Assembly: GCA_021166815.1 (NCBI GenBank)
Contig: JAJPEO010000013.1
Span: forward strand, 1 to 18,015
DNA from: Nocardioides sp.
Lineage (GTDB): Bacteria > Actinomycetota > Actinomycetes > Propionibacteriales > Nocardioidaceae
DNA: 18,015 nt
Reading direction: 5' to 3'
The position numbers were made by a program, and so were the translations under genes. A model generated the notes under the pieces. It did no database searches, was not told the origin of the DNA, and worked only from the letters and a program-made list of their open reading frames with translations. Position 1 is the stretch's first letter. Every line of letters starts with the position of its first letter. Below are positions 1 to 18,015 of the stretch, piece by piece.

Positions 1-1263
1 CCATCGGCGGCCCTCGATCGCGCGCAGGCGGCTGATCTCGAACTGCTGGGCGATCTGGCCGGTGTCGACGAACATCGCGTTGCTCGTCTGCACGGCGAGC
101 AGCTGCCCACCGCGGCTCAGCTGTGCGGCGATGCCCGCGTCGTACGCCACGTCGAAGCAGATCGCGTCCGCCACGAGGACGTCGTCGACCCGCAGGGGCT
201 CGACCCGGGTGCCGCGCACCATGTCCCGGCCGATCTCGCGCAGACGCCCGTAGGTGTCCGGGATCAGCGCCCCGCGGAAGGGGATGTACTCGCCGTAGGG
301 CACCGGGTGCCGCTTGGTGTAGCGGTCCCCTCCCCCGGTGTCCGGGTGCCACACGATTCCCTGGTTGAGCACGCGCGAGTCGTCGTCCTGGTCGTCCAGC
401 ATGGCGCCCACCAGGACCGGCCTGTCGATGGCCGCCACAGCCGTCTCGATCCCGTGGCGCACCCCCGGGTCGGTGAACGGGTCGACCGCGGTCGAGTTCT
501 CCGGCCACACGACGAGGTCCGGGGCCGTCTCCTCCCCGGCTCGTACGCGTGCGGCCAGGTCCACGGTGGCTGACACGTGGTTGGCAGTGACCTCGCGGTG
601 GACGCCCACGACGTCGATGCCCGAGCCGGGGACGTTGCCCTGGACCACGGCGATCGTGAAGCGCCCCACCTCCGTGGGCGAGGAGCTCACGAGCACCGGC
701 ACGAGCACGACGCCCGCGAGCGACACGACACCGGCCCCGACCAGCAGCGGCCGGGCGCGCACCGTGACCAGCACCCACGCCAGGGTCGTGCCGCTCAGGG
801 CCACCAGGAGCGACACGCCGGTCATCCCCACCCAGGGCAGCGCCGCCGCCCACGGGGTGTCGGCGGTGGCGTAGGCGAGGCGTCCGAAGGGCATGCCGGA
901 GAAGGGCCACTCGCTGCGCCAGTTCTCCACCGCGACCCACCACAGGGCCGTCCACAGCGGCCAGCCCCGGTGGCGCAGCGACCAGGCCATGACCAGGCCG
1001 AGGGGAGCGAAGAACGCGGCCTCGACCGCGCACATCGCCAGCCAGGCATCCGTGCCCACGGCCCGCATCCACACCATCACCGAGAACACGAAGGACACGC
1101 CGAACGCCAGCGCCGGGATCCACGCCCTGCCCAGCGGCGCGCCACGCAGGCACAGCACCAGCGCGGCGAGCGCGGGCGGCATGAGGGCGGAGACCCCCAC
1201 CGGCTCGAAAGCCGCGGCCAGCACCAGCCCCGCCGTGAAGGCGATGAGGGTTCGGAGCGGCAC
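1..1263 (-). CDS. lnt: Apolipoprotein N-acyltransferase, 5' part (runs off left edge)
   Basis: This is the N-terminal 421 codons of a membrane acyltransferase that adds the third acyl chain to the N-terminal cysteine of lipoproteins at the outer face of the cytoplasmic membrane. The first ~200 residues are strongly hydrophobic, as expected for the multi-helix membrane part. A nitrilase-like domain follows with the expected catalytic triad: Glu255 in WPENST, Lys317 in YTKRHPVPYGEY and Cys369 in ICFDVAYD. Spacing matches the known E/K/C triad of the family. The frame is still open at base 1, with roughly the last 100 residues missing. The GTG at 1263 is the first start after an in-frame TGA (1269-1267), although no clear ribosome binding site precedes it. 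It lies 44 bp downstream of kal on the same strand, so it could be read from the kal operon or from its own promoter. No polyprenol-phosphate mannosyltransferase domain is seen in the visible part. Confidence 0.93.
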   Translation of the reverse strand, partial: MPLRTLIAFTAGLVLAAAFEPVGVSALMPPALAALVLCLRGAPLGRAWIPALAFGVSFVFSVMVWMRAVGTDAWLAMCAVEAAFFAPLGLVMAWSLRHRGWPLWTALWWVAVENWRSEWPFSGMPFGRLAYATADTPWAAALPWVGMTGVSLLVALSGTTLAWVLVTVRARPLLVGAGVVSLAGVVLVPVLVSSSPTEVGRFTIAVVQGNVPGSGIDVVGVHREVTANHVSATVDLAARVRAGEETAPDLVVWPENSTAVDPFTDPGVRHGIETAVAAIDRPVLVGAMLDDQDDDSRVLNQGIVWHPDTGGGDRYTKRHPVPYGEYIPFRGALIPDTYGRLREIGRDMVRGTRVEPLRVDDVLVADAICFDVAYDAGIAAQLSRGGQLLAVQTSNAMFVDTGQIAQQFEISRLRAIEGRRW

Positions 1264-1307
1264 GCGTCAGACCGTAACCGACGACCGGGCACGTGCCGCG
1301 CCGGGCG

Positions 1308-1697
1308 TCACCGGGGTGGGACGACGACCGTGCCGAGGGCGGTGGTGGCGACGATGGGCTCGGGCAGCACCGTGGCCGCGCCGGGCGCGTCCGTGGTGGC
1401 CGCGCCGCGGGCGACGACGGCCACGGCGAAGGCCATCACCCGGCTCCGCGTGCCGGCCCGGACCAGCTCGCAGCTCACCTCGAGGACGTCACCCGCCCGC
1501 ACCGGGGCCAGGAACTGCACGTCGTCGTAGGACGCGAACAGGCCCTCGTCGCCGTCGGTGGTGATGCACATGTCGGTGGCGATGTCCCCGAACAGCCCGA
1601 GGCTGTAGGCGCCGTCGACCAGGTTCCCGGCGTAGTGGGCGTGGGAGTAGGGCACGTACCGGCGGTGGACCAGGCGGGTGCCGACGATGTCGTTCAT
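1308..1697 (-). CDS. kal: 3-aminobutyryl-CoA ammonia-lyase (hotdog fold)
   Basis: A 129-residue protein that looks like Kal, the hotdog-fold lyase that eliminates ammonia from L-3-aminobutyryl-CoA to give crotonyl-CoA late in lysine fermentation. Length matches the family (about 130 residues). The N-terminal stretch RYVPYSHAHYAGNLVDGAY and the central YDDVQFLAPVRAGDVLEV fit the small CoA-binding hotdog fold. Identification rests on this pattern plus its position directly after kamE. Its ATG overlaps the kamE stop as ATGA, and an AAGGTGG-like ribosome binding site lies inside the kamE end, so translation is probably coupled. It is the last recognisable lysine-pathway gene in the operon; lnt follows after 44 bp. 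A generic MaoC/hotdog thioesterase would be the alternative, but the context makes Kal more likely. Confidence 0.88.
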   Translation of the reverse strand: MNDIVGTRLVHRRYVPYSHAHYAGNLVDGAYSLGLFGDIATDMCITTDGDEGLFASYDDVQFLAPVRAGDVLEVSCELVRAGTRSRVMAFAVAVVARGAATTDAPGAATVLPEPIVATTALGTVVVPPR

Positions 1698-2434
1698 GAG
1701 GCCACCTTGGCGGAGACGAGACGGTGCACGAGGAAGGACGCGACCTCACCGGGCGTGGTGCCGCGAGTGAAGACCCGGTCGACGCCGAGATCGGCGGACA
1801 TGGCCTCGTCGAAGCGGGGACCACCGACGACCAGCAACGGACGACGATCGGCGGGGTAGGCCTCGCGGAAGGCGGCCGACATCTCACGCGTGTTGAGCAG
1901 GTGGGCGTCGCGCTGGGTCACGACCTGCGACACCAGCACCGCATCAGCCTTCTCCGCTCGCGCGGCGGCCACGAGCTCGGGGACGGAGACCTGGGCGCCG
2001 AGGTTGACCACCTTGAGCTCGCGGTAGTACTCGAGCCCCTTCTCCCCCGCGAATCCCTTGATGTTGAGGATCGCGTCGATGCCGACGGTGTGGGCGTCGG
2101 TGCCGATGCAGCCACCCACCACCACCAGCCGGCGCCGGAGCCCCTGCTTGATCGCGGCGTTGGCCTCCTTGGGCGTCAACAGCGGGTAGTCGCGCTCGAC
2201 GACGCTCACCGCGTCGGTGTCGACGAGGTGGGACACCCGGCCGTACACGACGAAGAAGGTGAACCCCTCCCCCACCGGCTTGGCGTGCACCACGAGGGCG
2301 GGCTCCATGCCCATCTTGTTGGCGAGCTGCACCGCGGCGCCCTCGGCCACCTTGGAGTGCGGCATCGGCAGGGTGAACGACAGCTGCACCATGCCGTCGC
2401 CGGTGGTGTCGCCGTAGGGACGGATGATGCTCAC
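1694..2434 (-). CDS. kamE: Beta-lysine 5,6-aminomutase, beta (B12-binding) subunit
   Basis: A 246-residue cobalamin-binding subunit of the adenosylcobalamin/PLP enzyme that moves the terminal amino group of beta-lysine (or D-lysine) from C6 to C5. The B12 motif DxHxxG is present as DAHTVG (Asp113, His115, Gly118), with His115 as the expected lower cobalt ligand. Lys126 in the NIKGFAG segment fits the PLP-binding lysine of the family, at the same 11-residue distance from the histidine as in the clostridial enzyme. A Rossmann-like B12 domain fills the C-terminal half, ending around LLVVGGPRFD. The GTG start at 2434 overlaps the kamD stop as GTGA, and AAGGAG (2442-2447 on the complement) sits 7 nt upstream, which decides the start. 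It is slightly shorter than the clostridial subunit (about 262 residues). The kal start overlaps its stop by 4 nt. Confidence 0.95.
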   Translation of the reverse strand: MSIIRPYGDTTGDGMVQLSFTLPMPHSKVAEGAAVQLANKMGMEPALVVHAKPVGEGFTFFVVYGRVSHLVDTDAVSVVERDYPLLTPKEANAAIKQGLRRRLVVVGGCIGTDAHTVGIDAILNIKGFAGEKGLEYYRELKVVNLGAQVSVPELVAAARAEKADAVLVSQVVTQRDAHLLNTREMSAAFREAYPADRRPLLVVGGPRFDEAMSADLGVDRVFTRGTTPGEVASFLVHRLVSAKVAS

Positions 2435-4032
2435 TTGCCGGCTCCTTGCTTCGGTGCGTCGAGGATCTCCGTGGCCGGGTTGAAGTACGCCTCCGACTTG
2501 GCAGCCACTCCGTCGAGGCCCTTGCCGCGGTCGGCCGGACGCTTCATGAGGCCGAACGTGCCGTCGGCGATCGCGGCGAGCAGCGGCGGGTCGCCCGCGG
2601 CGTCGGTATCGTTGCGGATCTGGTCGAGCAGCTGGATCGACTCGGCGAGCACTTGGCGCGCCCGGGTCGCGATGAAGCCGTCGGGTGCCGGGTGGAAGTC
2701 CTCGCGCAGGTTGCCGGCTGCGTTCATGACGTAGCGGACGTTCTGGAGGGCGAGGTCGCGGTCGGAGAGCCACGGCGTGACGACGGCCTCGGTCATCATG
2801 CCGACCAGCAGGATCCCCTGGTCGGTGAGCGCGCCCACGAGGTTGAAGAACGCGTCGAGGAGGTAGCCCCGGAAGATGTCGCCGGTCATGTGCCTCGTCG
2901 GGGGCATCCACTTCAGCGGCGCCTCGGGGAAGAGCTCGCGGGCCAGCAGGGCGTGCGCGAGCTCGAGGCGGAAGGAGTCGGGGACGTCGGGATCGATCTC
3001 GAAGGCGTGCCCGAGCCCGAGCTGCCAGTCCTCGAGCCCGGCCTCCTTGGCGAAGTACTCGTTGAGGAGCTGGCTGGTCGTGACGGTGTGTGCCGCCTCG
3101 ACCGCGTCGGCGGTGGTGAGGTAGTTGTCCTCGCCGGTGTTGATGATGATGCCGGCGCGGGCGTGCACCTGCCGGCTGAACCGCTGGTCGACGAAGGTGC
3201 GGATCGGGTTGATGTCGCGGAAGAGGATTCCGTACATCGAGTCGTTCAGCATCATGTCGAGCCGCTCGAGCCCGGCCAGCGCGGCGATCTCGGGCATGCA
3301 CAGCCCGGATGCGTAGTTGGTGAGGCGCACGTAGCGCCCGAGCTCCTGCGACGTCTCGTCGAGCGCCGCGCGCATCAGGCGGAAGTTCTCCTGGGTGGCG
3401 TAGGTGCCGGCGAAGCCCTCGCGGGTGGCCCCCTCGGGCACGAAGTCGAGCAGCGACTGGCCGGTCGACCTGATGACGGCGATGACGTCGGCGCCCGCGC
3501 GGGCGGCTGCCTGCGCCTGCGGGATGTCCTCGTGGATGTCGCCGGTGGCCACGATGAGGTAGATCCACGGCTTGCGGGGCGCGTCACCCACCCGCTTGAT
3601 GAACTTCTCACGACGCGCGCGCTGCCGGTCGATGGTGCGGATCCCGGCCCCCACGGCCTTGCTGCTGGCCGAGCGTGCCCGGGTGGCTGCACGGCCCTCG
3701 GGCAGGGAGAACCGCACCGACCCGGCCGAGGCCTTCTGGGCGAGCACGTGCAGGTCGTCGGCCTCGCCGCGGACCAGGGCGTCCCATACCGGCAGCGCCA
3801 CGCCGTGCTCGAGGCCGCAGTCGGCCCGGACCGCGTCGACCAGGCGGTTGACCCACGGGGTGCCCTCAGCGTCGGCGCCGTCGAGGCCGGCCAGCCGCAG
3901 GGTGGCCCGTTCCACGGAGACCGTGGTGTGCCGGCGGGCCAGGTCGACGATGGGCTTGCCCACCTGACGAGCCAGCGTCCGCGCCCGGCGTACGTCGGCC
4001 CGGTCGATCCCGAGCGTCGAGGTCGTGGCCAT
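2431..4032 (-). CDS. kamD: Beta-lysine 5,6-aminomutase, alpha subunit
   Basis: The 533-residue large subunit of the B12/PLP-dependent lysine 5,6-aminomutase; it forms the TIM-barrel catalytic part and works with KamE, encoded next. Family signatures are clear: MMLNDSMYGILFRDINPIRT, then ARAGIIINTGEDNYLTTADA and NEYFAKEAGLEDWQLGLGHA. Length is close to the clostridial alpha subunit (about 516). The first ~130 residues (ADVRRARTLARQVGKPIVDL) also match the helical N-terminus of the family. The ATG at 4032 is preceded by GGAGG (4038-4042 on the complement) with a 5-nt spacer. The frame stays open further upstream, but that part is antisense-type sequence overlapping kdd. It shares one base with the kdd stop (TGATG) and four with the kamE start. 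No frameshift is seen. Its cofactor demand implies a cobalamin supply that is not visible here. Confidence 0.96.
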   Translation of the reverse strand: MATTSTLGIDRADVRRARTLARQVGKPIVDLARRHTTVSVERATLRLAGLDGADAEGTPWVNRLVDAVRADCGLEHGVALPVWDALVRGEADDLHVLAQKASAGSVRFSLPEGRAATRARSASSKAVGAGIRTIDRQRARREKFIKRVGDAPRKPWIYLIVATGDIHEDIPQAQAAARAGADVIAVIRSTGQSLLDFVPEGATREGFAGTYATQENFRLMRAALDETSQELGRYVRLTNYASGLCMPEIAALAGLERLDMMLNDSMYGILFRDINPIRTFVDQRFSRQVHARAGIIINTGEDNYLTTADAVEAAHTVTTSQLLNEYFAKEAGLEDWQLGLGHAFEIDPDVPDSFRLELAHALLARELFPEAPLKWMPPTRHMTGDIFRGYLLDAFFNLVGALTDQGILLVGMMTEAVVTPWLSDRDLALQNVRYVMNAAGNLREDFHPAPDGFIATRARQVLAESIQLLDQIRNDTDAAGDPPLLAAIADGTFGLMKRPADRGKGLDGVAAKSEAYFNPATEILDAPKQGAGK

Positions 4033-5075
4033 CACAGCCTCCGTTCGAAGAGTGCGCGTACGCCCGGTTCGGAGCGCAGCAGTTCCATTGCGGCCTGGGC
4101 ATGGCCCGGCACGTAGCCGGTGCCGATCAGCATGGTGACGTCGGCGGCGAGTCCCTCGGCTCCGAGGGCCGCCGCGCTGAAGGAGGTCGCCATGGAGAAG
4201 AAGATGATGGTGCCGCCGTCGGCGGTCGACAGGATCGCGCCGCCCTCGCAGCCCGGGACGTCGACGCAGACGATGGTCACGTCCGCGGGGCCACCGGCGC
4301 CCGTCACGGCCGCTCGCAGGGCGAGGGGGTCGCGCGCGTCTGCGATGACGACCTCGTCCGCGAGGCCGCTCGCGGTCAGCAGGTCCGCCTCCTCCTGGTG
4401 GGGCACGACGCCGATGGTGCGGCGCGCGCCGGCCTGCCGCGCGGCCGCCAGGCAGAGGGACCCGGACTTGCCGGCCCCGCCGATGACCGTGACGACCGGA
4501 TCGGTGTAGCGCGACACGTGGCGGGTGGCCAGTGCCGGCGCTCCGCAGACGTCCATGACGCTCAGCGACAGGGCAGGGTCCAGGTCGTCGGGGATCACGG
4601 CGGCGATGGAGCGGCCGAAGAGGACGGCGTAGCCGTCGCACGGCACCTGCTCGCTCGTGCCGTCCCACCGGGCCAGGTCGTCCTCGACCACCAGCGGGGT
4701 CAGCGTGAGGCTGACCAGGGTGGCGATCCGGTCCCCCACCGCGAGACCCAGCGGCGACTCGGGACCGACCGCCTCCACGGTGCCGACGAGCATGCCGCCC
4801 GAACCCGTCTCGGGGTTCTGCATCTTGCCGCGCGCGCCGATGATCGAGAGGACCTCGGCGCGCACGGCCGCACCGTCACCGTCGTGCTTGCGCTCGAGCT
4901 GGCGGAACGAGGCAGCGTCGAGGTTGAGCCGCTCCACTCGCACGCGGACCTCGTCGGGCCACAGGTCAGGCCGGGTGTCGAGCCGCTGCGCCGCCTGGGG
5001 CAGCACCACCCGATCGTCGAGGACGCGGTGCAACCCGGTGGGATCCGCCGGCCGAACGTCGTCACTCACGAACAT
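4032..5075 (-). CDS. kdd: L-erythro-3,5-diaminohexanoate dehydrogenase
   Basis: A 347-residue NAD(P)-dependent dehydrogenase that deaminates 3,5-diaminohexanoate, the product of KamDE, to 3-keto-5-aminohexanoate. It has the layout of a zinc-free medium-chain dehydrogenase. An N-terminal GroES-like part contains MQNPETGSGGMLVGTVEAVG, a stretch typical of Kdd. A Rossmann nucleotide-binding segment follows (VVTVIGGAGKSGSLCLAAAR, about residues 190-210), and the C-terminal part has GTIIFFSMATSFSAAALG. It is the first gene of the minus-strand operon. The ATG at 5075 has GGAG 4 nt upstream and AAGGA further out. Its stop TGA shares a base with the kamD ATG. Expression is probably driven from the divergent region shared with kamA, where a TAAGAT hexamer is a candidate -10. 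An unrelated alcohol dehydrogenase is the alternative, but sequence and neighbours argue for Kdd. Confidence 0.93.
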   Translation of the reverse strand: MFVSDDVRPADPTGLHRVLDDRVVLPQAAQRLDTRPDLWPDEVRVRVERLNLDAASFRQLERKHDGDGAAVRAEVLSIIGARGKMQNPETGSGGMLVGTVEAVGPESPLGLAVGDRIATLVSLTLTPLVVEDDLARWDGTSEQVPCDGYAVLFGRSIAAVIPDDLDPALSLSVMDVCGAPALATRHVSRYTDPVVTVIGGAGKSGSLCLAAARQAGARRTIGVVPHQEEADLLTASGLADEVVIADARDPLALRAAVTGAGGPADVTIVCVDVPGCEGGAILSTADGGTIIFFSMATSFSAAALGAEGLAADVTMLIGTGYVPGHAQAAMELLRSEPGVRALFERRL

Positions 5076-5108
5076 CTGACTCCATCCTTGTCGTTTCAAC
5101 ACCGTAGT

Positions 5109-5145
5109 GCCGCAAATCTTACGGCGTGGCATTGGACTCGCCGTA
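5109..5145. promoter_or_regulatory. Repeated half-site GCCGCAA / TTACGGC / CGCCGTA (candidate operator)
   Basis: GCCGCAA-ATC-TTACGGC at 5109-5125 is an imperfect 17-bp palindrome: 6 of 7 arm positions pair around a 3-bp AT-rich centre. A further half-site CGCCGTA (5139-5145) forms a perfect 7-bp inverted repeat with TACGGCG (5120-5126), 12 bp apart. The first repeat covers the candidate kdd -10 and the last half-site runs into the candidate kamA -10. This layout would suit a multimeric regulator such as the Lrp/AsnC protein encoded downstream of kamA. The repeats are seen directly; the binding protein is inferred. Confidence 0.45.
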
Positions 5146-5168
5146 TGATCTACACGTACTCTTTCAGA

Positions 5169-5184
5169 TGTGGTGCGCACCACA
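5169..5184. promoter_or_regulatory. Perfect 16-bp palindrome TGTGGTGCGCACCACA
   Basis: The sequence TGTGGTGCGCACCACA is an exact palindrome without a spacer, which favours a dimeric protein-binding site over an RNA hairpin. It lies about 20 bp downstream of the candidate kamA -10, in the likely 5' untranslated leader and 51 bp before the kamA ATG. A bound protein there would block kamA elongation or initiation. The inner core TGGTNNNNACCA recalls GntR-type sites, but no GntR gene is in the window. A 10-bp version of the core also occurs by chance inside a coding region at 12004-12013. Confidence 0.45.
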
Positions 5185-5190
5185 CAACTG

Positions 5191-5207
5191 GGGCGCGCCG
5201 TGCGCCC
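5191..5207 (+). other. Small hairpin in the kamA leader
   Basis: GGGCGC (5191-5196) and GCGCCC (5202-5207) form a 6-bp GC stem with a 5-nt loop in the likely kamA leader, 17 nt before the ribosome binding site. There is no U-run after it. It may be a leader structure affecting initiation, or chance in GC-rich DNA. Confidence 0.3.
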
Positions 5208-5224
5208 GTATCCGTCGTGCTGAC

Positions 5225-5230
5225 GAGGAG
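5225..5230 (+). promoter_or_regulatory. kamA ribosome binding site
   Basis: GAGGAG ends 4 nt before the ATG at 5235. The reading frame is open far upstream because it runs antisense through kdd, so this site is what fixes the kamA start. Confidence 0.8.
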
Positions 5231-5234
5231 AACC

Positions 5235-6689
5235 ATGAGCATCGACACCGCCACCAGCCTCACCACCGAGCAGCCGTACGCCTATCGGCGCGTGGAGCTC
5301 GTCGAGCCGGACTGGACCCGGTTCCCCGGCTGGGCCGACGTCACGGCGGAGGAATGGGCCTCGGTGCAGTGGCAGCGCGCCCACTGCGTGAAGAACGTCA
5401 AGCAGCTGCGCGAGCTCCTCGGCGACCTCGTGGACGACCGCTTCTACGAGGACCTCGAGCGGGACCAGGCCGAGCGGGCCACCATGTCGATGCTGGTGCC
5501 CCCGCAGATGATGAACACGATGGTGCCGGACTTCGAGCCGCGCGGCGCAGGGTCGATGACCGAGGCGCTCTACGCCGACCCGATCCGCCACTACATGATC
5601 CCCGTCTTCTCCGATCGCCGCACCGACTGGCCGTCCCACCCGCACGCCACCCGCGACTCCCTCCACGAGCACGACATGTGGGTCACCGAGGGCCTGACCC
5701 ACCGCTACCCGACCAAGGTGCTCGCCGAGCTGCTGCCGACGTGCCCCCAGTACTGCGGGCACTGCACGCGGATGGACCTCGTCGGCAACTCCACCCCGGT
5801 CATCGACAAGCTGAAGTTCGCGGGCAAGCCCAACGACCGCCTCAAGGACATGCTCGACTACCTGCGCCAGAACCCGGCCGTGCGCGACGTGGTCGTGTCC
5901 GGAGGCGACGTGGCCAACATGCCGTGGCCCCGCCTGGAGGCCTTCCTGACCGAGCTGCTGGAGATCGAGAACATCCGCGACATCCGCCTCGCCTCCAAGG
6001 CGCTGATCGGTCTCCCCCAGCACTGGCTGCAGCCTGACCTGCTCGAGGGCCTGTCGCGGGTCGCGACCACTGCCCGCTCCCGTGGCGTGTCGATCGCCAT
6101 GCACACCCACACCAACCACGCGAACTCGGTGACGCCCCTCGTCGCCCAGGCGGCGGGCGCGATGCTCGACGTCGGGCTGCGCGACGTACGCAACCAGGGC
6201 GTCCTGCTCAACGGCGTCAACGCCGACCCGCACGCGCTGCTCGACCTGTGCTTCCGCCTGCTCGACGGCGCCCAGATCATGCCCTACTACTTCTACATGT
6301 GCGACATGATCCCGTTCTCGGAGCACTGGCGGGTCTCGGTCGCCGACGCCCAGCGCCTGCAGCACCACATCATGGGCTACCTGCCGGGCTACGCCACCCC
6401 GCGGATCGTGTGCGACGTGCCCTTCGTCGGGAAGCGCTGGGTGCACCAGCTCGCCGACTACGACCACGAGCACGGCATCTCGTACTGGACGAAGAACTAC
6501 CGCACCTCGATCGAGGCGACGGACGCCGAGGCGCTGACGCGCCACTACGAGTACTACGACCCGATCCACACCCTGCCCGAGTCGGGCCAGCAGTGGTGGG
6601 CGGAGCACGGTCGCCTCGACGAGACCGCCCTCAAGGCGGCCGAGATGGCCGAGGCGTCGCGACGGACGGCCGCGCTGCAGGCCTGGTGA
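5235..6689 (+). CDS. kamA: Lysine 2,3-aminomutase (radical SAM, PLP)
   Basis: A 484-residue radical-SAM aminomutase that interconverts L-lysine and L-beta-lysine. The iron-sulfur motif CxxxCxxC is CPQYCGHC (Cys170, Cys174, Cys177), followed by Arg179, equivalent to the carboxylate-binding Arg of the clostridial enzyme. SGGD (222-225) fits the SAM-binding segment. Asp357 in MCDM and Asp394 in VCDVPFVGK match the two aspartates that hold the lysine side-chain amine, which separates lysine from glutamate 2,3-aminomutases. Lys400 is the expected PLP lysine, although the usual PGGGGK motif is PFVGK here. The C-terminal CxCxxC-type zinc cysteines of the clostridial enzyme are absent. The protein is also longer than that family (about 416 residues), with ~80 extra residues split between both ends. 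It is divergent from kdd-kamDE-kal, whose products continue the pathway, and converges on the Lrp gene. Lysine specificity is inferred from residues and context. Confidence 0.93.
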   Translation: MSIDTATSLTTEQPYAYRRVELVEPDWTRFPGWADVTAEEWASVQWQRAHCVKNVKQLRELLGDLVDDRFYEDLERDQAERATMSMLVPPQMMNTMVPDFEPRGAGSMTEALYADPIRHYMIPVFSDRRTDWPSHPHATRDSLHEHDMWVTEGLTHRYPTKVLAELLPTCPQYCGHCTRMDLVGNSTPVIDKLKFAGKPNDRLKDMLDYLRQNPAVRDVVVSGGDVANMPWPRLEAFLTELLEIENIRDIRLASKALIGLPQHWLQPDLLEGLSRVATTARSRGVSIAMHTHTNHANSVTPLVAQAAGAMLDVGLRDVRNQGVLLNGVNADPHALLDLCFRLLDGAQIMPYYFYMCDMIPFSEHWRVSVADAQRLQHHIMGYLPGYATPRIVCDVPFVGKRWVHQLADYDHEHGISYWTKNYRTSIEATDAEALTRHYEYYDPIHTLPESGQQWWAEHGRLDETALKAAEMAEASRRTAALQAW

Positions 6690-6705
6690 CCTGATGGCCC
6701 CGAGG

Positions 6706-6733
6706 ACCGGCCGGCGCTAGTCGATCGGCCGGT
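6706..6733. terminator. Inverted repeat between convergent kamA and lrp
   Basis: ACCGGCCG (6706-6713) and CGGCCGGT (6726-6733) form a perfect 8-bp GC-rich stem with a 12-nt loop. It begins 17 nt after the kamA stop and contains the stop codon of the convergent Lrp gene. There is no T-run on either side, so it would be a non-canonical, possibly bidirectional terminator of the kind proposed in actinobacteria. It is the only obvious structure in the 27-bp gap. Confidence 0.45.
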
Positions 6734-7169
6734 TCTCGTACGGGGTCGACAGCACGATCGTGGTGCGCGTCGACACGTTGGCCGCGGAGCGGATGCGGGC
6801 CAGCAGGTCCTCGAGGTCACCGGGGGTCTCCACCCTGACCTTGAGGATGTAGGACTCCTCCCCCGCGACCGACCAGCACGACTCGATCTCGTTGATGTCG
6901 ACCAGCCGGTCGGGGTAGTCGTCCGGCTGGGAGGGGTCGATCGGGGTGATCGAGATGAACGCGGTGAGCGGACGTCCGAGCTGCTCGTGGTCGACCGTGG
7001 CGCCGTAGCCCTTGATCAGCCCGCGCTGCTCCAGGCGCTTGACGCGCTGGTGGACCGCCGACGTGGAAAGTCCGGTCGCCTTGCCGAGGTCGGTGTAGGA
7101 CATCCGGCCGTCGACGGCCAGCAGGGAAAGGATCTTGCGGTCGGTGACCTCGACCTCGGGGGCGCTCAC
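6717..7169 (-). CDS. Lrp/AsnC family transcriptional regulator
   Basis: A 150-residue Lrp/AsnC protein. The N-terminal winged helix-turn-helix is clear (DRKILSLLAVDGRMSYTDLG then TGLSTSAVHQRVKRLEQRGL, residues ~10-52). The RAM effector-binding domain follows, with TAFISITPID and ESCWSVAGEESYILKVRV in the usual places. Such proteins bind DNA as octamers and sense amino acids. The GTG at 7169 is the only possible start: an in-frame TAG, the stop of the exonuclease gene, lies 9 nt upstream and the frame is the same. No strong ribosome binding site is seen, so it may depend on translational reinitiation after the exonuclease. It converges on kamA with 27 bp between stops. Position makes it the best local candidate to regulate kamA and the kdd operon, perhaps in response to lysine or beta-lysine; that link is inferred. 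Confidence 0.93.
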   Translation of the reverse strand: MSAPEVEVTDRKILSLLAVDGRMSYTDLGKATGLSTSAVHQRVKRLEQRGLIKGYGATVDHEQLGRPLTAFISITPIDPSQPDDYPDRLVDINEIESCWSVAGEESYILKVRVETPGDLEDLLARIRSAANVSTRTTIVLSTPYENRPID

Positions 7170-7178
7170 ACCGTCAGA

Positions 7179-8114
7179 CTAGTGCTCGCCGGCGAGCGCC
7201 TCTGCCAATCGCACGGATGATGAACCCAGTCCCCAGCGCTCGGTCAGGGCCTGGACCGCTGCGGCGTCGCGCGGCGCACGCGGGCGGGCCAGGTCTGGGG
7301 TCCCGAGGTCGAGGTCCCGTCGCACGGCGACCACCCGGGGCGCCACCTCGAGGTAGTCGGCGCTCAGGCGGAGCTTGCTGCGCGGACCCGGGCCCAGGTC
7401 GGAGTCGGGGTCCTCCACGGCGGCGAGGATCCCGGTCAGGTCACCGAACCGGCCCAGGAGGGTGGCCGCCGTCTTCTCGCCCACTCCGGGCACTCCGGGT
7501 AGCCCGTCGGAGGCGTCACCCCTCAAGGTCGCGAAGTCGGCGTACTGGTGTGCGTCGACGCCGTACTTGGCGCGGACCCAGGCGTTGTCGACCCGTTCGT
7601 GCCGACCGACCCCACGGGCGGTGTAGAGGACGCGTACGCCGGCCGCGTCGTCGACCAGCTGGAAGAGGTCACGGTCGCCGGTCACCACGTCGACCGGCAT
7701 CCCCGCACCCGTGGCGAGCGTGCCGATGACGTCGTCCGCCTCCATGGCGGCGTGCCCGACGACGGGGATCCCGAAGGCGGTCAGCACCTCCCGGATCACC
7801 GGCACCTGTGCCTGCAGCGGGTCGGGCACCTCCTCGACGTCGGGGGCCGGGCCCGGCACCTCCTCCACGACCCGGTGGGCCTTGTAGGACGGGAGCAGGT
7901 CGACGCGCCACTGGGGGCGCCAGTCCTCGTCCCAGCAGCACGCGAGGTGGCTGGGCTCGTACTCGGCGACCAGCCGGCTGATGAAGTCCATGAGACCGCG
8001 CACGGCGTTGACCGGCGTGCCGTCCGGGGCCTTCACCGAGTCGGGCACGCCGAAGAACGCCCGGAAGTAGAGCGACGCGGTGTCGAGGAGCAGGAGGCGG
8101 TCAGCATCGGCCAT
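7179..8114 (-). CDS. Stand-alone 5'-3' exonuclease (Pol I 5'-nuclease / FEN family)
   Basis: A 311-residue structure-specific 5' nuclease resembling the N-terminal domain of DNA polymerase I but without a polymerase. Metal-binding acids sit where expected: Asp11 (LLLLDTASL), Glu125/Asp127/Asp128 (EADDVIG), Asp147/Asp149 (TGDRDLFQLV) and Asp200/Asp203. The last pair leads into the helix-3-turn-helix DNA clamp GDASDGLPGVPGVGEKTA. The arch region contains LLPSYKAHR, typical of the family. Its ATG has GGGAGG 8 nt upstream. It starts 26 bp after the helY stop and ends 9 nt before the Lrp start. Its likely role is flap or RNA-primer removal, or a repair function overlapping that of Pol I. All catalytic residues appear intact. 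Confidence 0.93.
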   Translation of the reverse strand: MADADRLLLLDTASLYFRAFFGVPDSVKAPDGTPVNAVRGLMDFISRLVAEYEPSHLACCWDEDWRPQWRVDLLPSYKAHRVVEEVPGPAPDVEEVPDPLQAQVPVIREVLTAFGIPVVGHAAMEADDVIGTLATGAGMPVDVVTGDRDLFQLVDDAAGVRVLYTARGVGRHERVDNAWVRAKYGVDAHQYADFATLRGDASDGLPGVPGVGEKTAATLLGRFGDLTGILAAVEDPDSDLGPGPRSKLRLSADYLEVAPRVVAVRRDLDLGTPDLARPRAPRDAAAVQALTERWGLGSSSVRLAEALAGEH

Positions 8115-8140
8115 GGGCGCAGCCTCCCACACGCGGACCC

Positions 8141-10933
8141 TCAGTCCGCGAGGGCGGAGTAGGCGACGACGCCCCGCTTGACCAGTCGGGTTACCTCGCG
8201 TGCGCGGGCGCGCAGCTCCTTCTCCCCCGCCGCGTCGGCGACCTGCCCGGCGAGGTCGAGCAGCTGCTTCATCCACCGGACGAAGTCCCCCGCCGACAAA
8301 CCGGTCACCATGAGCACGTCGTCGAGCTCGTCGCCGGCAGCCCATCGCCACGCGGCCCAGCTGAGACCCTCGTCGGGCGCCCGCAGGAAGTCGAGGCGAT
8401 GCTGCTGCTCGAGGGCGTGCAGGTCAGCCCACACCGCGCTCACCTGCGCGAGCACCCGCGGCACCTCGCCGCCCGGGGAACGGGCCGCTCCGGAGTCGTC
8501 CGCACGACGTGCCTCGTAGACGAGGGCCGCCAGCACGCCGGCGAGCTCAGGAGCGTCCAGGTCGTCGAGCAGGCCGGCACGCATCGACTCCGCGACCACC
8601 AGGTCCATGTCGGTGTAGAGCCGCCGCAGGTGCATCCCCTGCTCGGTCACCCGGTCCCCCTCCAGGTAGTCCAGCGCCACCAGCACCTCGCACACGCGGT
8701 CGAACTGGCGCGCCACGCTGTTGGTGCGGTTCTCCACGCGCCGCTGCAGGGTCTCGGTGTCGCGCTGGAGCTTGAACCACCGCTCCGCCCACCGGGCGTG
8801 GTCCTCCCGATCGGGACACCCGTGGCAGGGGTGGGCCTTCAGCTCCTGCCGCAGCCGCGAGATCTCCCGCTCGGTGGCCGAGCCGGTCACCGCGTCACGG
8901 CGCTCCCGGGAGGGGCCACTGGTGTCCAGCCCCCGCACACGGGCCCGCAGGGCGGTGGCGAGGTCGCGACGCATCGCGGGGTTGCGGCCGTTGAAGTTGC
9001 GCGGCACCCGCATCCGCGCGATCGCCTCGACCGGCTCCGGGAAGTCGGCCGGTGACAGCCGGCGGGCCTCGCGACCGATCGTGAGCACGTACGGACGAGG
9101 TTCGTGGCCCGACAACCCCGGGTCGACGACCACGGCGAGACCGGAGAACTTGCCGGACGGGACGCGGATGACGTCGCCGGGGCGGAGCCGGCCCAGGGAC
9201 GCCAGCGCTTCGGTGCGGCGATCCGCTCGGCGCTCACGAGCGGCGCTCTTCTCGACGTCGGAGATCTGACGACGCAGGCCGGCGTACTCCATGAAGTCCC
9301 CGAGGTGGCACGTCGCGGCCTGCTCGTAGCCGTCCAGCGCGTCGTGGGCCTTGTGCAGCTGCCGGGCCAGGCCCACCACGGCCCGGTCGGCCTGGAACTG
9401 GGCGAACGACTGCTCCAGCAGCTCCCTCGAACGTGCCCGGCCGAACTGGTGGACCAGGTTGACGGCCATGTTGTACGACGGCCGGAAGGAGGACTTGAGC
9501 GGGTAGGTGCGGGTGGAGGCGAGCCCCGCGAGCTCGGCCGGGTTGATGCCGGGCTGCCAGAGCACGACGCCATGGCCCTCCACGTCGAGGCCGCGCCGTC
9601 CGGCGCGACCGGTGAGCTGGGTGTACTCGCCCGGGGTGACGTTGACGTGCGCCTCGCCGTTCCACTTCGACAGCTTCTCGATGACCACGGTGCGAGCCGG
9701 CATGTTGATGCCCAGCGCGAGGGTCTCGGTCGCGAAGACGACCTTGATCAACCCCTCCTGGAAGAGCTCCTCGACCACCTGCTTGAACGCGGGCAGCAGC
9801 CCGGCGTGATGGGCGGCCACGCCGCGGGACAGGCCGTCGAGGAAGTCGTGGTAGCCGAGGACGTCCAGGTCGGCAGGGGGAAGGCTGCGTGAGGCCAGCT
9901 CGACCCGCGCAAGGATCTCGTCGCGCTCCTCGGGCGTGGTCAGCCTGGTGTTGGCCGCGAGCAGCTGGCTCACCGCGGCGTCGCACCCGGCCCGGCTGAA
10001 GATGAAGACGATGGCCGGGAGCAGGCCCTCGCGCTCGAGCCGGTCGACGATCTCGACGCGGCTCGGGATCCAGACCCGGCGGCCGTTGCCGACCGCGCGC
10101 GGGTTCTTCGGCGAGCCCGGCTTGCCCTTGCGTGGGGACCGCCGGTCGCGCATCAGCCGCTGGCTCGCCCAGTCGTCGCGAGCCACCTTGAGCAGCTCGT
10201 CGTTGACCGGGGCGCCCTCCTTGACGAAGCCCGCGCTCGCGTCGACGTCGGACGAGGCGAAGAGGTCGAGCAGTCGGCGACCCACCATGACGTGCTGGAA
10301 GAGCGGAACGGGGCGACGCTCCTCGACGATCGTGGCGGTGTCGCCGCGGACCGTCTCCAGCCACTCCCCGAACTCCTCGGCGTTGGAGACCGTGGCGGAC
10401 AGGGAGATCAGGCTCACGGACTCGGGGAGGTGGATGATGACCTCCTCCCACACCGCCCCTCGCATCCGGTCGGCCAGGTAGTGGACCTCGTCCATCACCA
10501 CGAAGCCGAGGCCGAGGAGCGTGCGCGAGCCGGCATAGAGCATGTTGCGCAGGACCTCGGTGGTCATGACGACGACCGGCGCCTCACCGTTGACCACGTT
10601 GTCGCCCGTCAGCAGACCGACCTGGTCGGGCCCGTAGCGGGCCACCAGGTCGTTGTACTTCTGGTTGGACAACGCCTTGATGGGGGTCGTGTAGAACGCC
10701 TTGCGACCCGTGGCGAGCGCGAGGTGGATCGCGAACTCGCCCACGACCGTCTTGCCCGACCCGGTCGGCGCCGCGACGAGGACTCCCCTGCCGTCCTCGA
10801 TCGCCTTGCAGGCGCGTACCTGGAAGTCGTCGAGCGGGAACGCGTAGAGGCTCGTGAACTCCGTGAGGTGGGGGTGTTCGCGGCCCCGGCGGTACGCGGC
10901 GTACCGCGAGGCGGGCCCGTCCTCGGTGCTCAC
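8141..10933 (-). CDS. helY: Ski2/Mtr4-like DEAD/DEAH-box helicase HelY
   Basis: A 930-residue superfamily 2 helicase of the Ski2/Mtr4 type, usually thought to act on RNA. Walker A is APTGSGKT (55-62), motif II is DEVH (147-150), motif III is SAT (178-180), and motif VI is QLTGRAGRRGLD, followed by the long C-terminal DSHCT-like region. TTPIKALSNQKYND fits motif Ia. A short cysteine/histidine stretch, HPCHGCPDREDH, in the C-terminal half could bind a metal. The GTG at 10933 is fixed by GGAGG 7 nt upstream (10941-10945 on the complement) and by its GTGA overlap with the lipid-kinase stop. The open frame further upstream overlaps the lipid kinase and is not coding. The gene is a regular neighbour of the tatA/tatC-paf region in actinobacteria. 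Its partner may be the exonuclease gene just downstream, but this is only suggested by adjacency. Confidence 0.95.
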   Translation of the reverse strand: MSTEDGPASRYAAYRRGREHPHLTEFTSLYAFPLDDFQVRACKAIEDGRGVLVAAPTGSGKTVVGEFAIHLALATGRKAFYTTPIKALSNQKYNDLVARYGPDQVGLLTGDNVVNGEAPVVVMTTEVLRNMLYAGSRTLLGLGFVVMDEVHYLADRMRGAVWEEVIIHLPESVSLISLSATVSNAEEFGEWLETVRGDTATIVEERRPVPLFQHVMVGRRLLDLFASSDVDASAGFVKEGAPVNDELLKVARDDWASQRLMRDRRSPRKGKPGSPKNPRAVGNGRRVWIPSRVEIVDRLEREGLLPAIVFIFSRAGCDAAVSQLLAANTRLTTPEERDEILARVELASRSLPPADLDVLGYHDFLDGLSRGVAAHHAGLLPAFKQVVEELFQEGLIKVVFATETLALGINMPARTVVIEKLSKWNGEAHVNVTPGEYTQLTGRAGRRGLDVEGHGVVLWQPGINPAELAGLASTRTYPLKSSFRPSYNMAVNLVHQFGRARSRELLEQSFAQFQADRAVVGLARQLHKAHDALDGYEQAATCHLGDFMEYAGLRRQISDVEKSAARERRADRRTEALASLGRLRPGDVIRVPSGKFSGLAVVVDPGLSGHEPRPYVLTIGREARRLSPADFPEPVEAIARMRVPRNFNGRNPAMRRDLATALRARVRGLDTSGPSRERRDAVTGSATEREISRLRQELKAHPCHGCPDREDHARWAERWFKLQRDTETLQRRVENRTNSVARQFDRVCEVLVALDYLEGDRVTEQGMHLRRLYTDMDLVVAESMRAGLLDDLDAPELAGVLAALVYEARRADDSGAARSPGGEVPRVLAQVSAVWADLHALEQQHRLDFLRAPDEGLSWAAWRWAAGDELDDVLMVTGLSAGDFVRWMKQLLDLAGQVADAAGEKELRARAREVTRLVKRGVVAYSALAD

Positions 10934-11820
10934 GCGATGACCTCCAGCGCCCCCGGGACGCACTCGACGGTGAGCGGCAGGGCTCCGAATCGCTCGCCGT
11001 CGGCGTACGACACGACGTCCGGAGCCGCGACGGTCACGCGGGAGACGCGGCGGTGGACGTACTCGGCGACGCCGTCGATCTTGCCGGTGAACAACCGGGG
11101 GTACGAGCGCACGAGCTTGGCCTTGCTCATGCGCGTCACGATGACGACGTCGAGCAGGCCGTCGTCGAGCAGGGCTCCCTCGGTGATGCGCAGGCCCCCG
11201 CCGAACGACGGCCCGTTGCCGACGGCGACCAGCATCGCCTCGGTCTTCATCTGCTCGCCGTCGAGGTCGAGGACGTACGGGATCGGGCGGAAGGTCCGCA
11301 GCTCGGCGAGGGTGGCCAGGTTGTAGCGCATCTGCCCCCGCGGCCACGTCATGGTGTTGGCTCGCTCGTTGACGATGGCGTCGAACCCGGCGGCAAGCAC
11401 TGTGACGAAGTAGCGCCCGTTGCTGCGGGCCAGGTCGATCGTGCGCGTACGCGAGGCGATCACACGGTCCGCCGCCGCCGCCGCGTCCTTGCGGGGCAGG
11501 TCGAGGTATCGCGCGACGTCGTTGCCGGACCCGCTCGGGATCAGCCCCAGCGGGATCCCGGTGCCGGCCACCGCCTGGACTCCGAGGTGCACGAGCCCGT
11601 CGCCGCCGCAGACCACGAGCGCCTCGACGCCGTCCGCGACACAGGCGCGCGCCAGGTCGAGGGCCTCGTCGGCGTCACGGCCCTGGATGCTGCGGACCAC
11701 GAACCCGGCCTGCCGAAGCCGCGGCACGGCGATGTCGCGGTTGCGCAGGCCACGACCCTTGCCTGAGGTGGGGTTGGTGAGGAAAGCGATCTCCCGGCCT
11801 CGGGGCGTGGCGTCCTGCAT
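10930..11820 (-). CDS. Diacylglycerol kinase-like lipid kinase (DagK/YegS/BmrU family)
   Basis: A 296-residue soluble lipid kinase of the DAGK catalytic-domain family, which phosphorylates diacylglycerol or a related lipid at the membrane surface. The N-terminus has FLTNPTSGKGRG, the nucleotide-binding GGDG is at 72-75 (VVCGGDGLVHLG), and PSGSGND is at 96-101. The C-terminal beta-sandwich contains AVGNGPSFGGGLRITEGALL and DGLLDVVIV, as in the YegS-like family. It starts 10 nt after the stop of the small unknown gene and its stop overlaps the helY start as GTGA. The ATG has no good ribosome binding site. Instead, a TAGGGT hexamer (11828-11833 on the complement) ends 7 nt before it, raising the option of an internal promoter giving a nearly leaderless message. 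The lipid substrate cannot be told from sequence. Confidence 0.92.
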   Translation of the reverse strand: MQDATPRGREIAFLTNPTSGKGRGLRNRDIAVPRLRQAGFVVRSIQGRDADEALDLARACVADGVEALVVCGGDGLVHLGVQAVAGTGIPLGLIPSGSGNDVARYLDLPRKDAAAAADRVIASRTRTIDLARSNGRYFVTVLAAGFDAIVNERANTMTWPRGQMRYNLATLAELRTFRPIPYVLDLDGEQMKTEAMLVAVGNGPSFGGGLRITEGALLDDGLLDVVIVTRMSKAKLVRSYPRLFTGKIDGVAEYVHRRVSRVTVAAPDVVSYADGERFGALPLTVECVPGALEVIA

Positions 11821-11830
11821 GGACGCGACC

Positions 11831-12220
11831 CTATCCCCCGATCCGCAGGAGGACGGCGTAGTTCTGGGGGCGTGCCCCCACCGACTTCGCGAGGCGGGTG
11901 AGCGCTGCGACCACCCGGTCGCTGTCCCACGCCGAGCCCGGGGCCGCCAGGGTCAACCGGCCGGCGTACTCCCCCACCAGCACCTGGCCGTGGTGCCACG
12001 CCTGGTGCGCACCGTGGCGTGACGCCTCGTCGGTGACCGCGGCCGGGTAGGCCAGGTCGACCGCCAGGAGGTCGCAGGCCATGTCGGCCTCACCGACGCT
12101 CGTCAGGCGCCCGTGGACGAGGTGACCGACCCGCACGTCGTCGGCGCGCCAGACCACCTCGGCGGTCCCGAGCCACTCCGGCAGCTCGAACGTGTCGACG
12201 GGGATCACGGGCAGGGGCAT
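11831..12220 (-). CDS. Small protein of unknown function in the tat-helY string
   Basis: A 129-residue protein that I do not recognise as a named family. It has no signal peptide, membrane segment or cysteine pair; it contains a single cysteine (MACDLLAVDLAYPAAVTDE). Acidic and hydrophobic stretches alternate in a way that suggests a compact alpha/beta fold. Codon use is the same G/C-rich type as its neighbours. Reality as a gene is supported by tight packing: it begins 12 nt after the tatC stop and ends 10 nt before the lipid-kinase start. A GGTGGA sequence lies a few nt before its ATG. On context alone it could serve lipid or envelope functions, but no function can be assigned. Confidence 0.75.
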   Translation of the reverse strand: MPLPVIPVDTFELPEWLGTAEVVWRADDVRVGHLVHGRLTSVGEADMACDLLAVDLAYPAAVTDEASRHGAHQAWHHGQVLVGEYAGRLTLAAPGSAWDSDRVVAALTRLAKSVGARPQNYAVLLRIGG

Positions 12221-12232
12221 CGGTCCACCGTC

Positions 12233-13069
12233 TCAGATCTGGGACAGCTCGTCAGGCGAGAGGCCTGCGTTGGGCGCGCGGCGGGCCCGCCGGCGGTCGT
12301 TGAGCCGGGCGATGACCTCGGACAGGAAGAACAGCAGCACCATCGGCACGGCCATGAACGTCATCGTGAAGGGGTCGGCCGACGGAGTCGCCACCGCGGC
12401 GAAGACGAACGTGCCGACGATGATCCAGGGACGGTACGCCGCCAGCGACTTGCCCTTGATGACGCCGGCGATGTTGAGCAGCACCACGAACACCGGGATG
12501 TTGAACGCAAGCCCGAACACCAGCAGCGTGCGGGTGAAGAACTGCAGGTAGTCGTTGAAGTCGGTGAGGTTGGTGACCCCGTCGGGGTTGAACCCGATGA
12601 GCACCTCGATGGCCATGGGGAACGTGAGGTAGCCCAGCGCCACGCCCGCCAGGAAGAGCGGCCCGGCGACGGCCACGAACACGCGCGTCATCTTCCGCTC
12701 GCGCGCGTAGAGGCCCGGCAGCACGAAGGCCCAGACCTGGTAGAGCCAGTACGGGGCGGTGGCGACCACCGCGGCGAACCCGCACAGCTTGAGGTAGAGC
12801 AGCAGGCCGCCGCCCAGGCCTCGGGTGGTGGCCATCGTGGTGTCCTCGCCGAGCTTGGCCCGGGCGCCCTCGTACGGCCCGTAGACCAGGTCGTAGAGCT
12901 GGGAGAAGAAGACGAGGGCGAGCGCGAAGGCGACGACGAGCACGAGCAGGCTGCGCAACAGACGGGCACGGAACTCACGGAAGTGGTCCGACAGGGCCAT
13001 CCGCCCGTCCTGCCCCACAGGGTGCAGCGGCCGGCCTGCGAACAGGCCGGCGATCCCGGCGAGACTCAC
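12233..13069 (-). CDS. tatC: Sec-independent protein translocase TatC
   Basis: The multi-spanning receptor of the twin-arginine translocase, which binds RR signal peptides of folded exported proteins. The cytosolic N-terminal motif ALSDHFREFRARLL precedes the first of about six hydrophobic segments (LLVLVVAFALALVFF). Family landmarks include YWLYQVWAFVLPGLYARERK and the C-terminal FAAVATPSADPFTMTFMAVP. With the GTG at 13069 the protein has 278 residues and starts 3 nt after the tatA stop. An ATG at 13000 would give 255 residues, beginning directly at the DHFRE motif. The longer start is chosen because the stretch HPVGQDGRMALSDH looks like the N-terminal tails of other actinobacterial TatC proteins. 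The ribosome binding site of the GTG is weak, so the start is less certain than the gene. Confidence 0.95.
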   Translation of the reverse strand: MSLAGIAGLFAGRPLHPVGQDGRMALSDHFREFRARLLRSLLVLVVAFALALVFFSQLYDLVYGPYEGARAKLGEDTTMATTRGLGGGLLLYLKLCGFAAVVATAPYWLYQVWAFVLPGLYARERKMTRVFVAVAGPLFLAGVALGYLTFPMAIEVLIGFNPDGVTNLTDFNDYLQFFTRTLLVFGLAFNIPVFVVLLNIAGVIKGKSLAAYRPWIIVGTFVFAAVATPSADPFTMTFMAVPMVLLFFLSEVIARLNDRRRARRAPNAGLSPDELSQI

Positions 13070-13072
13070 CCG

Positions 13073-13324
13073 TCAGGCGGTCGTGTCGTCGCGCCGCTCA
13101 CGCGCCGCCTCGTCGGCGGGCTCGGCGGACTCGATCTGCGCCGGGGTCGAGGGCGATGCGTCGTCGTCGCGCAGTCCCTTGGTCTCGGTCTTGAAGATCC
13201 GCAGAGCCTGGCCCGAGCTCCGGGCGAGGTCAGGGAGCTTGGCGGCGCCGAAGACGAGGACGACGATGGCGAGGATGATGAGCCACTCCGCCCCCTGGGG
13301 CATGCCGATCATCGGGTTCACCAT
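13073..13324 (-). CDS. tatA: Twin-arginine translocase subunit TatA
   Basis: An 83-residue pore-forming Tat subunit. It has one N-terminal membrane helix (WLIILAIVVLVFGAAKLPDL) with the FGxxKLP hinge, an amphipathic helix (ARSSGQALRIFKTETKG) and a disordered charged tail of about 30 residues. The ATG at 13324 has GGAG 6 nt upstream (13331-13334 on the complement). It is followed after 3 nt by tatC and preceded by a 47-bp gap after pafC. That gap holds no obvious hairpin, so the paf and tat genes may share a transcript. No TatB is visible in the window. Confidence 0.95.
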   Translation of the reverse strand: MVNPMIGMPQGAEWLIILAIVVLVFGAAKLPDLARSSGQALRIFKTETKGLRDDDASPSTPAQIESAEPADEAARERRDDTTA

Positions 13325-13371
13325 GTGTCACTCCAGTGTCGTGGTTCGTTCAGGGTGGTGCGCGGGCCATC

Positions 13372-15359: not shown

Positions 15360-15375
15360 GATGCCTCCTCCTGTC

Positions 15376-15391
15376 CGGGGCTCGCTCCCCG
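15376..15391 (-). other. Short hairpin between the FKBP gene and pafB
   Basis: CGGGG and CCCCG form a 5-bp stem with a 6-nt loop, located 12 nt after the FKBP stop and only 4 nt before the pafB ribosome binding site. There is no U-run. It could be a weak attenuator separating FKBP from pafB expression, or have no role. Confidence 0.25.
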
Positions 15392-15403
15392 CGTGGACGG
15401 ATC

Positions 15404-16357: not shown

Positions 16358-16420
16358 CTGTCAGTCATGGGAGCGGGTTGCCGGGACACCCTACCCAGCC
16401 CCTCCACAGCGCCGAGGGAG

Positions 16421-17782: not shown

Positions 17783-17844
17783 ACCTCCACCCTAGTCACC
17801 TGCGTCACACAGGGTGCGGATGTCGGCCGTCGACGCGGCGAGCC
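17783..17844 (-). promoter_or_regulatory. prcA-pafA gap with candidate leaderless pafA promoter
   Basis: The 62-bp gap contains TAGGGT (17789-17794 on the complement) positioned so that transcription would begin at about the G of the pafA GTG. No convincing -35 lies 16-19 nt further upstream. A GGAGG in the same place could instead be an ordinary ribosome binding site on a prcA-pafA message. No terminator-like stem is seen. Confidence 0.3.
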
Positions 17845-18015
17845 TCAGGCGTCGGCAGCGGGGGCGGTCGGAGTGACCAGGAGCTGGGCCAGTGCCTCCT
17901 CGCGCACCCGCACGAACTTCCGAGGCTGGGCCCGCGTGCGATCGAGCACCGCGACCTCGAGGTCCTCGACCTCGATCTTGCGGTCTCCGGTCTCGGAGTG
18001 CCCGAGCGCCGCCAC
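17845..18015 (-). CDS. prcA: Proteasome subunit alpha, C-terminal 56 residues (runs off right edge)
   Basis: The last 56 codons of a protein ending VAVLDRTRAQPRKFVRV followed by an alanine/leucine-rich tail and TGA at 17845-17847. The stretch GDRKIEVEDLEVAVLDR matches the end of actinobacterial 20S proteasome alpha subunits, and the position upstream of pafA is the usual one. The start lies beyond the window, so the N-terminal gate region cannot be seen. The frame is intact in the visible part. Confidence 0.85.
   Translation of the reverse strand: MAALGHSETGDRKIEVEDLEVAVLDRTRAQPRKFVRVREEALAQLLVTPTAPAADA

Follow-up and report, generated by a model that had tools for sequence, protein, structure and literature searches.

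A predicted lysine beta-mutase route from a conserved kam locus and an unlinked kce candidate in Nocardioides and related actinobacteria

The established pathway of lysine fermentation proceeds through KamA, KamDE, Kdd, Kce and Kal in that order, and to our knowledge it has been known so far mainly from fermenting bacteria that avoid oxygen. Among the best matches listed in our literature search, in which some enzyme-name phrases may not match, there was no description of the route in aerobic actinobacteria; in the accessible portion of PMC2667541, Nocardioides is mentioned for its seven members of the methylmalonyl-CoA mutase group, and the 5,6-aminomutase is assigned no host. Here we analyze an 18,015-nucleotide stretch of Nocardioides sp. 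DNA (assembly GCA_021166815.1, contig JAJPEO010000013.1, positions 1 to 18,015), hereafter the window, which carries kamA, kdd, kamD, kamE and kal at 1308-6689. We consider it likely that this locus serves a catabolic route from L-lysine to crotonyl-CoA with an unlinked Kce, probably under Lrp control, in a cell that probably respires. A sequence-only reading of the window had proposed a catabolic lysine beta-mutase route ending in crotonyl-CoA, which our analysis supports as a prediction, and had described its core as complete-looking, a description that does not stand: the window lacks kce, whose product catalyses an obligatory step linking Kdd to Kal and for which a candidate lies elsewhere in the genome.

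The five genes are intact, as that reading had held, with frames that are all open on inspection of the open reading frames (ORFs), and four of the five products (KamD, KamE, Kdd and Kal) pass their NCBIfam equivalog cut-offs. On the minus strand, kdd (4032-5075; 3,5-diaminohexanoate dehydrogenase, 347 amino acids (aa)) heads a run formed with kamD (2431-4032), kamE (1694-2434) and kal (1308-1697; 3-aminobutyryl-CoA ammonia lyase, 129 aa), in which the start of each gene overlaps the stop of the preceding one. Divergent from this run, kamA (5235-6689, plus strand) encodes a 484-aa KamA-type radical S-adenosylmethionine (SAM) aminomutase, predicted to be a lysine 2,3-aminomutase, and beyond it lies the gene of an Lrp/AsnC-family protein (6717-7169, minus strand; PF13404 and PF01037), the predicted regulator of the kam genes. 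Kdd scores 249.4 bits on NF052381 (cut-off 200) and matches PDB entry 7dl3 over query residues 12-344 (E 4e-66); KamD scores 693.4 bits on NF052384 (cut-off 600) and 808.6 bits on PF09043, and matches the alpha subunit of 8t0v (E 3e-157); KamE scores 343.8 bits on NF052385 (cut-off 280) and matches the beta subunit of 9q1a/8t0v (E 1.6e-62); and Kal scores 179.6 bits on NF052388 (cut-off 160), its best solved relative being the beta-alanyl-CoA:ammonia lyase 4mtu (E 7e-19). The structures closest to Kdd, KamD and KamE are those of the enzymes to be expected. The KamE columns of the cobalt-ligand His and of the pyridoxal phosphate (PLP) Lys, which we take to be catalytic, are conserved in 92 of 93 sequences, the remaining one being a gap. 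Together with the KamA residues described below, they agree with the earlier claim that the catalytic residues are kept. When compared with five relatives, the five genes have ratios of nonsynonymous to synonymous differences (pN/pS) of 0.19-0.45 and are therefore under purifying selection.

The candidate for the missing step is the single BKACE-family match in the window's genome, encoded on a separate contig next to dtd (G000:C366). Its best relative in the PDB is a true Kce, 2y7d (E 4e-59; next best 1e-37), with which it has Glu14, His46, His48, Arg226, Glu230 and Asp231 in common; according to the accessible part of PMC10470551, Glu14 of Kce binds the 5-amino group of the substrate. The related loci, for which we took the best 80 of 571 stretches encoding relatives, show the same absence: none of the 80 gave a Kce match at E 1e-6 within up to 10 kb per side. 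Residue 14 was read in 28 of the 66 family genomes having both KamD and Kce, namely the window's genome and 27 others, and it is Glu in all 28, while in the six family paralogues checked it is Gly (five loci) or Ile (G139). Across the phylum, where residues were read for loci returned or fetched, a subset of the 71 genomes with a match, a Glu14 protein occurs in 14 of the 16 genomes with KamD, counting one in which KamD is partial (G204).

The presence of this Kce type closely follows that of KamD. Within the family, KamD is present in 70 of 148 sampled genomes, over its family cut-off in 68, which shows that the kam set is not peculiar to the window's genome, and Kce of this type is likewise encoded in 68 of the 148. 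Both occur together in 66 genomes, KamD alone in 4, Kce alone in 2 and neither in 76, so that Kce accompanies 66 of 70 kamD-positive and 2 of 78 kamD-negative genomes (Fisher p 2e-34). These calls follow a rule set after the rows had been seen (a match of at most 810 bases, E 2.6e-71 or better); they score the truncated Kce of G002 as negative and exclude G139, whose protein is 35% identical to that of the window's genome and has Ile14. Counting G139 as Kce gives 66/4/3/75 and p 4e-33. To allow for descent, we built a single-gene tree from HelY. Of the 146 genomes that encode HelY, 121 were included and 25, from an all-negative genus (g16), were omitted; G084 and G102 have no HelY match and fall outside the tree, and assembly gaps add noise. 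KamD changes 17 times on the FastTree topology and 18 times on that of IQ-TREE. Over 15 independent pairs differing in KamD (FastTree), Kce differed in the same direction in 12.8 and in the opposite direction in 0.4 on average (median p 2e-4), and over 16 such pairs (IQ-TREE) in 13.8 and 0.2 (median p 1e-4). A control BKACE paralogue of about 860 bases, with Gly14 where read, gave 2.1 same and 1.5 opposite (p 1), its raw Fisher p being 0.036. Glu14 and this co-variation therefore tie the unlinked kce to the kam route.

Other arrangements of kce were also seen. At L125, in G429, a genome without a KamD match, kdd adjoins a Glu14-type kce, possibly representing an incomplete route entered at 3,5-diaminohexanoate. 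In G181, from another class of the phylum, L113/L165 hold a compact kal-kce-kdd cluster of classical layout, with a Kce above the NCBIfam cut-off.

Judged by its sequence, KamA is a member of a distinct actinobacterial subfamily, which probably performs the same reaction as lysine 2,3-aminomutase. Two members of this subfamily, found in the phylum outside the family of Nocardioides, reach 171.2 and 157.3 bits on TIGR03820, the lysine 2,3-aminomutase model. The sole PDB sequence match at E 1e-3 is 2a5h (E 1e-37), which was also the only entry under E 0.001 (E 2e-21) when a predicted KamA model (mean predicted local distance difference test score 75.9, predicted template modelling score 0.80) was used for a fold search, with a template modelling score of 0.59 by query length, a root-mean-square deviation of 10.5 and 26% identity over the fold alignment. 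The cluster loop of the model (169-196) is of low confidence and the underlying alignment included the KamA of locus L147, and we therefore regard the fold match as support rather than proof. Equivalents of the CxxxCxxC cysteines and of R134, D293, D330 and K337 are conserved in 191-195 of 196 aligned sequences, the exceptions being gaps apart from a single mismatch each at D293 and K337. Because 120 of the rows are whole database proteins from the closest relatives (79-88% identical), this is conservation within the subfamily; a further 75 rows are alignment segments, some of which end short at the C-terminus. In the clostridial structure K337 is the PLP lysine and D293 and D330 bind the epsilon-amino group, and the equivalents of these residues and of R134 are assigned their roles from it. 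A C-terminal CxCxxC motif and the equivalent of C268, which provide the structural zinc-site cysteines of the SB4 enzyme, are absent in 195 of the 196 sequences (with three gaps at C268) and were found in L147 alone. At 9874-11034 that locus (in G324, an actinobacterium of another family) encodes a classical KamA, with 606.1 bits on TIGR03820, beside kamD, kamE and kdd.

The architecture of the locus is conserved. The 80 best loci come from Nocardioides, Kribbella, Phycicoccus, Knoellia, Terrabacter, Humibacillus, Ornithinimicrobium, Kineosporia, Actinopolymorpha and other genera, and genomes of named isolates, Nocardioides and Kribbella among them, keep the gene order. Among the 80, kamA and kdd are divergent in all 66 loci having both, kal stands directly 3' of kamE in all 78 loci having kal, and KamA accompanies kdd in 66 of 71 kdd-bearing loci, the remaining five of which start inside kdd. 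In the wider phylum sample, KamD is over its cut-off in 15 of 296 genomes, and in five loci from genomes of other classes (L143, L144, L146, L153 and L154) kamA, kdd, kamD, kamE and the Lrp gene stay together, with kamA not always divergent from kdd. Such a distribution would fit an ancient origin followed by several losses better than a recent import from fermenters. Weaker KamD-model matches in G273, G303, G322, G280 and G204 (about 141-147 bits, from model position 150 or so) may, on sequence grounds, be ornithine 4,5-aminomutase-type proteins.

Two kinds of additional genes recur within these loci. In five of the 80 (L026, L042, L054, L074 and L078), pta and ack separate kdd from kamD, and in L152 they occur upstream of kamD, an arrangement that would link the kam route to acetate and ATP formation. 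In 31 of the 80 (L009, L015, L034, L066, L072 and 26 others), the 3.5 kb upstream of kamD include a gene for an Amidohydro_3 protein (PF07969), in most cases placed after kdd and before kamD. Among solved structures, the nearest relatives of this protein are uncharacterised metal-dependent hydrolases. Of the 12 loci fetched from other families, 10 carry such a gene just upstream of kamD.

The divergent kdd/kamA promoter region contains a candidate operator at 5116-5149, an inverted repeat without strand whose 11-nucleotide arms (5116-5126 and 5139-5149) are 91% complementary and separated by 12 nucleotides. It sits within a kdd/kamA block common to Nocardioides relatives. The core GCATTGGAC was recovered, with at most two mismatches, in 24 of 70 intergenic sequences including that of the window, three of them probably by chance, and was not found in the other 46, so the site is lineage-bound. 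The window's arms read TACGGCG/CGCCGTA where those of its neighbours read TGCGGCG/CGCCGCA, both sides having changed with pairing kept; seven arm pairs were counted over the 24 rows, and complementarity holds at five of them in 19-22 rows and at the other two in 9 and 11 rows. A matrix built from 20 sequences, leaving out the window and the chance-like L035, L049 and L056, scores 51.5 at the window's own site; when the window was shuffled 20 times, the highest score was 10.4. Of the 57 loci that extend more than 3 kb past kamA, 53 have an Lrp orthologue on that side, 46 of them within 3 kb, and an orthologue also adjoins kamA in the five other-class loci, in which no HelY or exonuclease match was found. 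The neighbouring Lrp protein is the obvious candidate to bind the inverted repeat, through which the kam genes might be regulated and induced. A perfect 16-base palindrome, TGTGGTGCGCACCACA, was also noted upstream of kamA at 5169-5184, and it is only partly conserved in relatives.

In the route that we propose, KamA, a radical SAM and PLP enzyme, would convert L-lysine into L-beta-lysine, and KamDE, dependent on adenosylcobalamin and PLP, would shift the terminal amino group and thereby form 3,5-diaminohexanoate, which Kdd would oxidise to 3-oxo-5-aminohexanoate. From this product Kce (G000:C366), with acetyl-CoA, would form acetoacetate and 3-aminobutyryl-CoA, and Kal would release ammonia from 3-aminobutyryl-CoA to yield crotonyl-CoA. 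Most likely, flux from lysine would then reach acetyl-CoA by beta-oxidation of crotonyl-CoA and of acetoacetate activated by a CoA-transferase. The window's genome encodes a cobalamin adenosyltransferase, CoA-transferase subunits (at C240 and C280) and two haem-copper oxidase matches, which, together with the co-varying Kce candidate, support the prediction. No MutS_V match was found in this genome, which is 89.7% complete; 11 of 14 control genomes do have one. Lysine 6-aminotransferase was also tried as a complementary route: at E 1e-100 it was not found in the window's genome and was present in 4 of 148 genomes, with no clear complementarity, other lysine routes not having been searched.

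Several observations weigh against this reading. The C366 protein reaches 273.6 bits against the NF052387 cut-off of 382, a cut-off passed by none of the 148 family genomes, and KamA reaches 161.6 bits on its best model, TIGR03820, against a cut-off of 525.4. The association of Kce with KamD has exceptions in both directions: four kamD-positive family genomes give no full-length Kce call (G002, where it is truncated, G042, G045 and G090) and two kamD-negative ones carry Kce (G014 and G031), while in the phylum G324 has kamD and a best BKACE protein with Ala14, G204, with its partial KamD, has no match at E 1e-40, and two kamD-negative genomes, G429 and G348, encode Glu14 proteins. No copy of the kam operator was found at kce, the best matrix score over 37 kce loci (34 genomes) being 2.5, and there is no transporter gene within the kam operon, permeases elsewhere not having been searched. 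Finally, the assembly is a metagenome-assembled genome, and its incompleteness (89.7% complete) counts on the same side.

Taken together, these results are best read as an ancient variant, in respiring actinobacteria, of the pathway that fermenters use. The interpretation as an aerobic route is well supported as a prediction: its enzymes are known, and the setting, the KamA subfamily and the gene layout make up the variant. To its fullest form we would give an even chance: an old and widespread aerobic lysine route with an oxygen-adapted, zinc-free KamA and no MutS-type reactivase, feeding crotonyl-CoA into beta-oxidation and existing alongside those through cadaverine, saccharopine and aminoadipate.

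The same enzymes might instead be active only in anoxic or microoxic periods, for fermentation or redox balancing, with crotonyl-CoA being reduced or acetyl-CoA converted to acetate with ATP formation. KamA-type enzymes are oxygen-sensitive in the anaerobes studied, and the five loci with pta-ack between kdd and kamD include that of Phycicoccus elongatus Lp2 (L074), which we take to be the same strain as Tetrasphaera elongata Lp2. The accessible part of PMC6630437 reports that Tetrasphaera elongata Lp2 still grows during a 3 h anaerobic phase, but that it forms no fermentation product other than succinate in significant quantity. Since pta-ack was found in only 5 of the 80 loci, a set that includes some ending before that place, and the window's genome has its two haem-copper oxidase matches, we regard an exclusively anoxic role as rather unlikely.

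A change of entry substrate appears more improbable still. Under this explanation the compound entering the route would be, instead of free L-lysine, either beta-lysine or a derivative (acylated or a lactam) from peptides or antibiotics, and KamA would be secondary; the Amidohydro_3 genes upstream of kamD would fit such a supply, as would the occurrence of beta-lysine in actinomycete antibiotics. However, the window's operon has no Amidohydro_3 gene, the relatives elsewhere in its genome are weak (best 30% identity, E 1.5e-13), and KamA is present in every kdd locus except those five that begin inside kdd. A decaying relic or a misassembly, to which the fragmentation of the assembly (400 contigs) might point, has a negligible probability, and we rejected the relic in view of the intact frames and the pN/pS values; the same gene order in named isolates also argues against this explanation.

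The surroundings of the locus are as the sequence-only reading had stated. Below kal lies an lnt-like gene (LNT_N), and above the Lrp gene are genes for a 5'-3' exonuclease, a DSHCT/DEAD helicase (HelY), a lipid-kinase-like protein, TatC and the Pup ligase PafA. Between the lipid-kinase-like gene and tatC, a 129-aa ORF at 11831-12220 has no Pfam match at E 1e-3.

If the catabolic reading is true, two radical enzymes of lysine fermentation would take part when respiring actinobacteria use lysine. As Kce and KamA fall under curated cut-offs, pathway calls based on such cut-offs would miss the route, and the Glu14 rule and the co-variation offer a way to call it. The locus is present in named isolates (Nocardioides, Kribbella and Knoellia), so the question can be tested by ordinary gene deletions.

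Compared with known systems, the window's KamA shares the cluster, PLP and lysine-binding residues of the lysine 2,3-aminomutase of C. subterminale SB4 (2a5h; TIGR03820), but is 26% identical to it, far under the model's cut-off, and without the zinc-site cysteines. The Kce candidate, which shares the listed residues with 2y7d, scores below the NF052387 cut-off, and its gene stands beside dtd, outside the kam cluster. In contrast to the lysine fermenters, the actinobacterial locus has its kce unlinked, a KamA of another subfamily, an Lrp gene beside kamA and a host with oxidase genes; PMC3149608 lists a mutS gene in the legend to its figure of the fermenter cluster, whereas the window's genome gave no MutS-family match. 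The same paper describes a variant of this route in Candidatus Cloacamonas in which Kat replaces Kal, while the window keeps a Kal above its cut-off. With lysine fermentation in Clostridium, Fusobacterium and others, the actinobacterial route shares KamD, KamE, Kdd and Kal, all above their cut-offs, and a Kce-like enzyme with Glu14.

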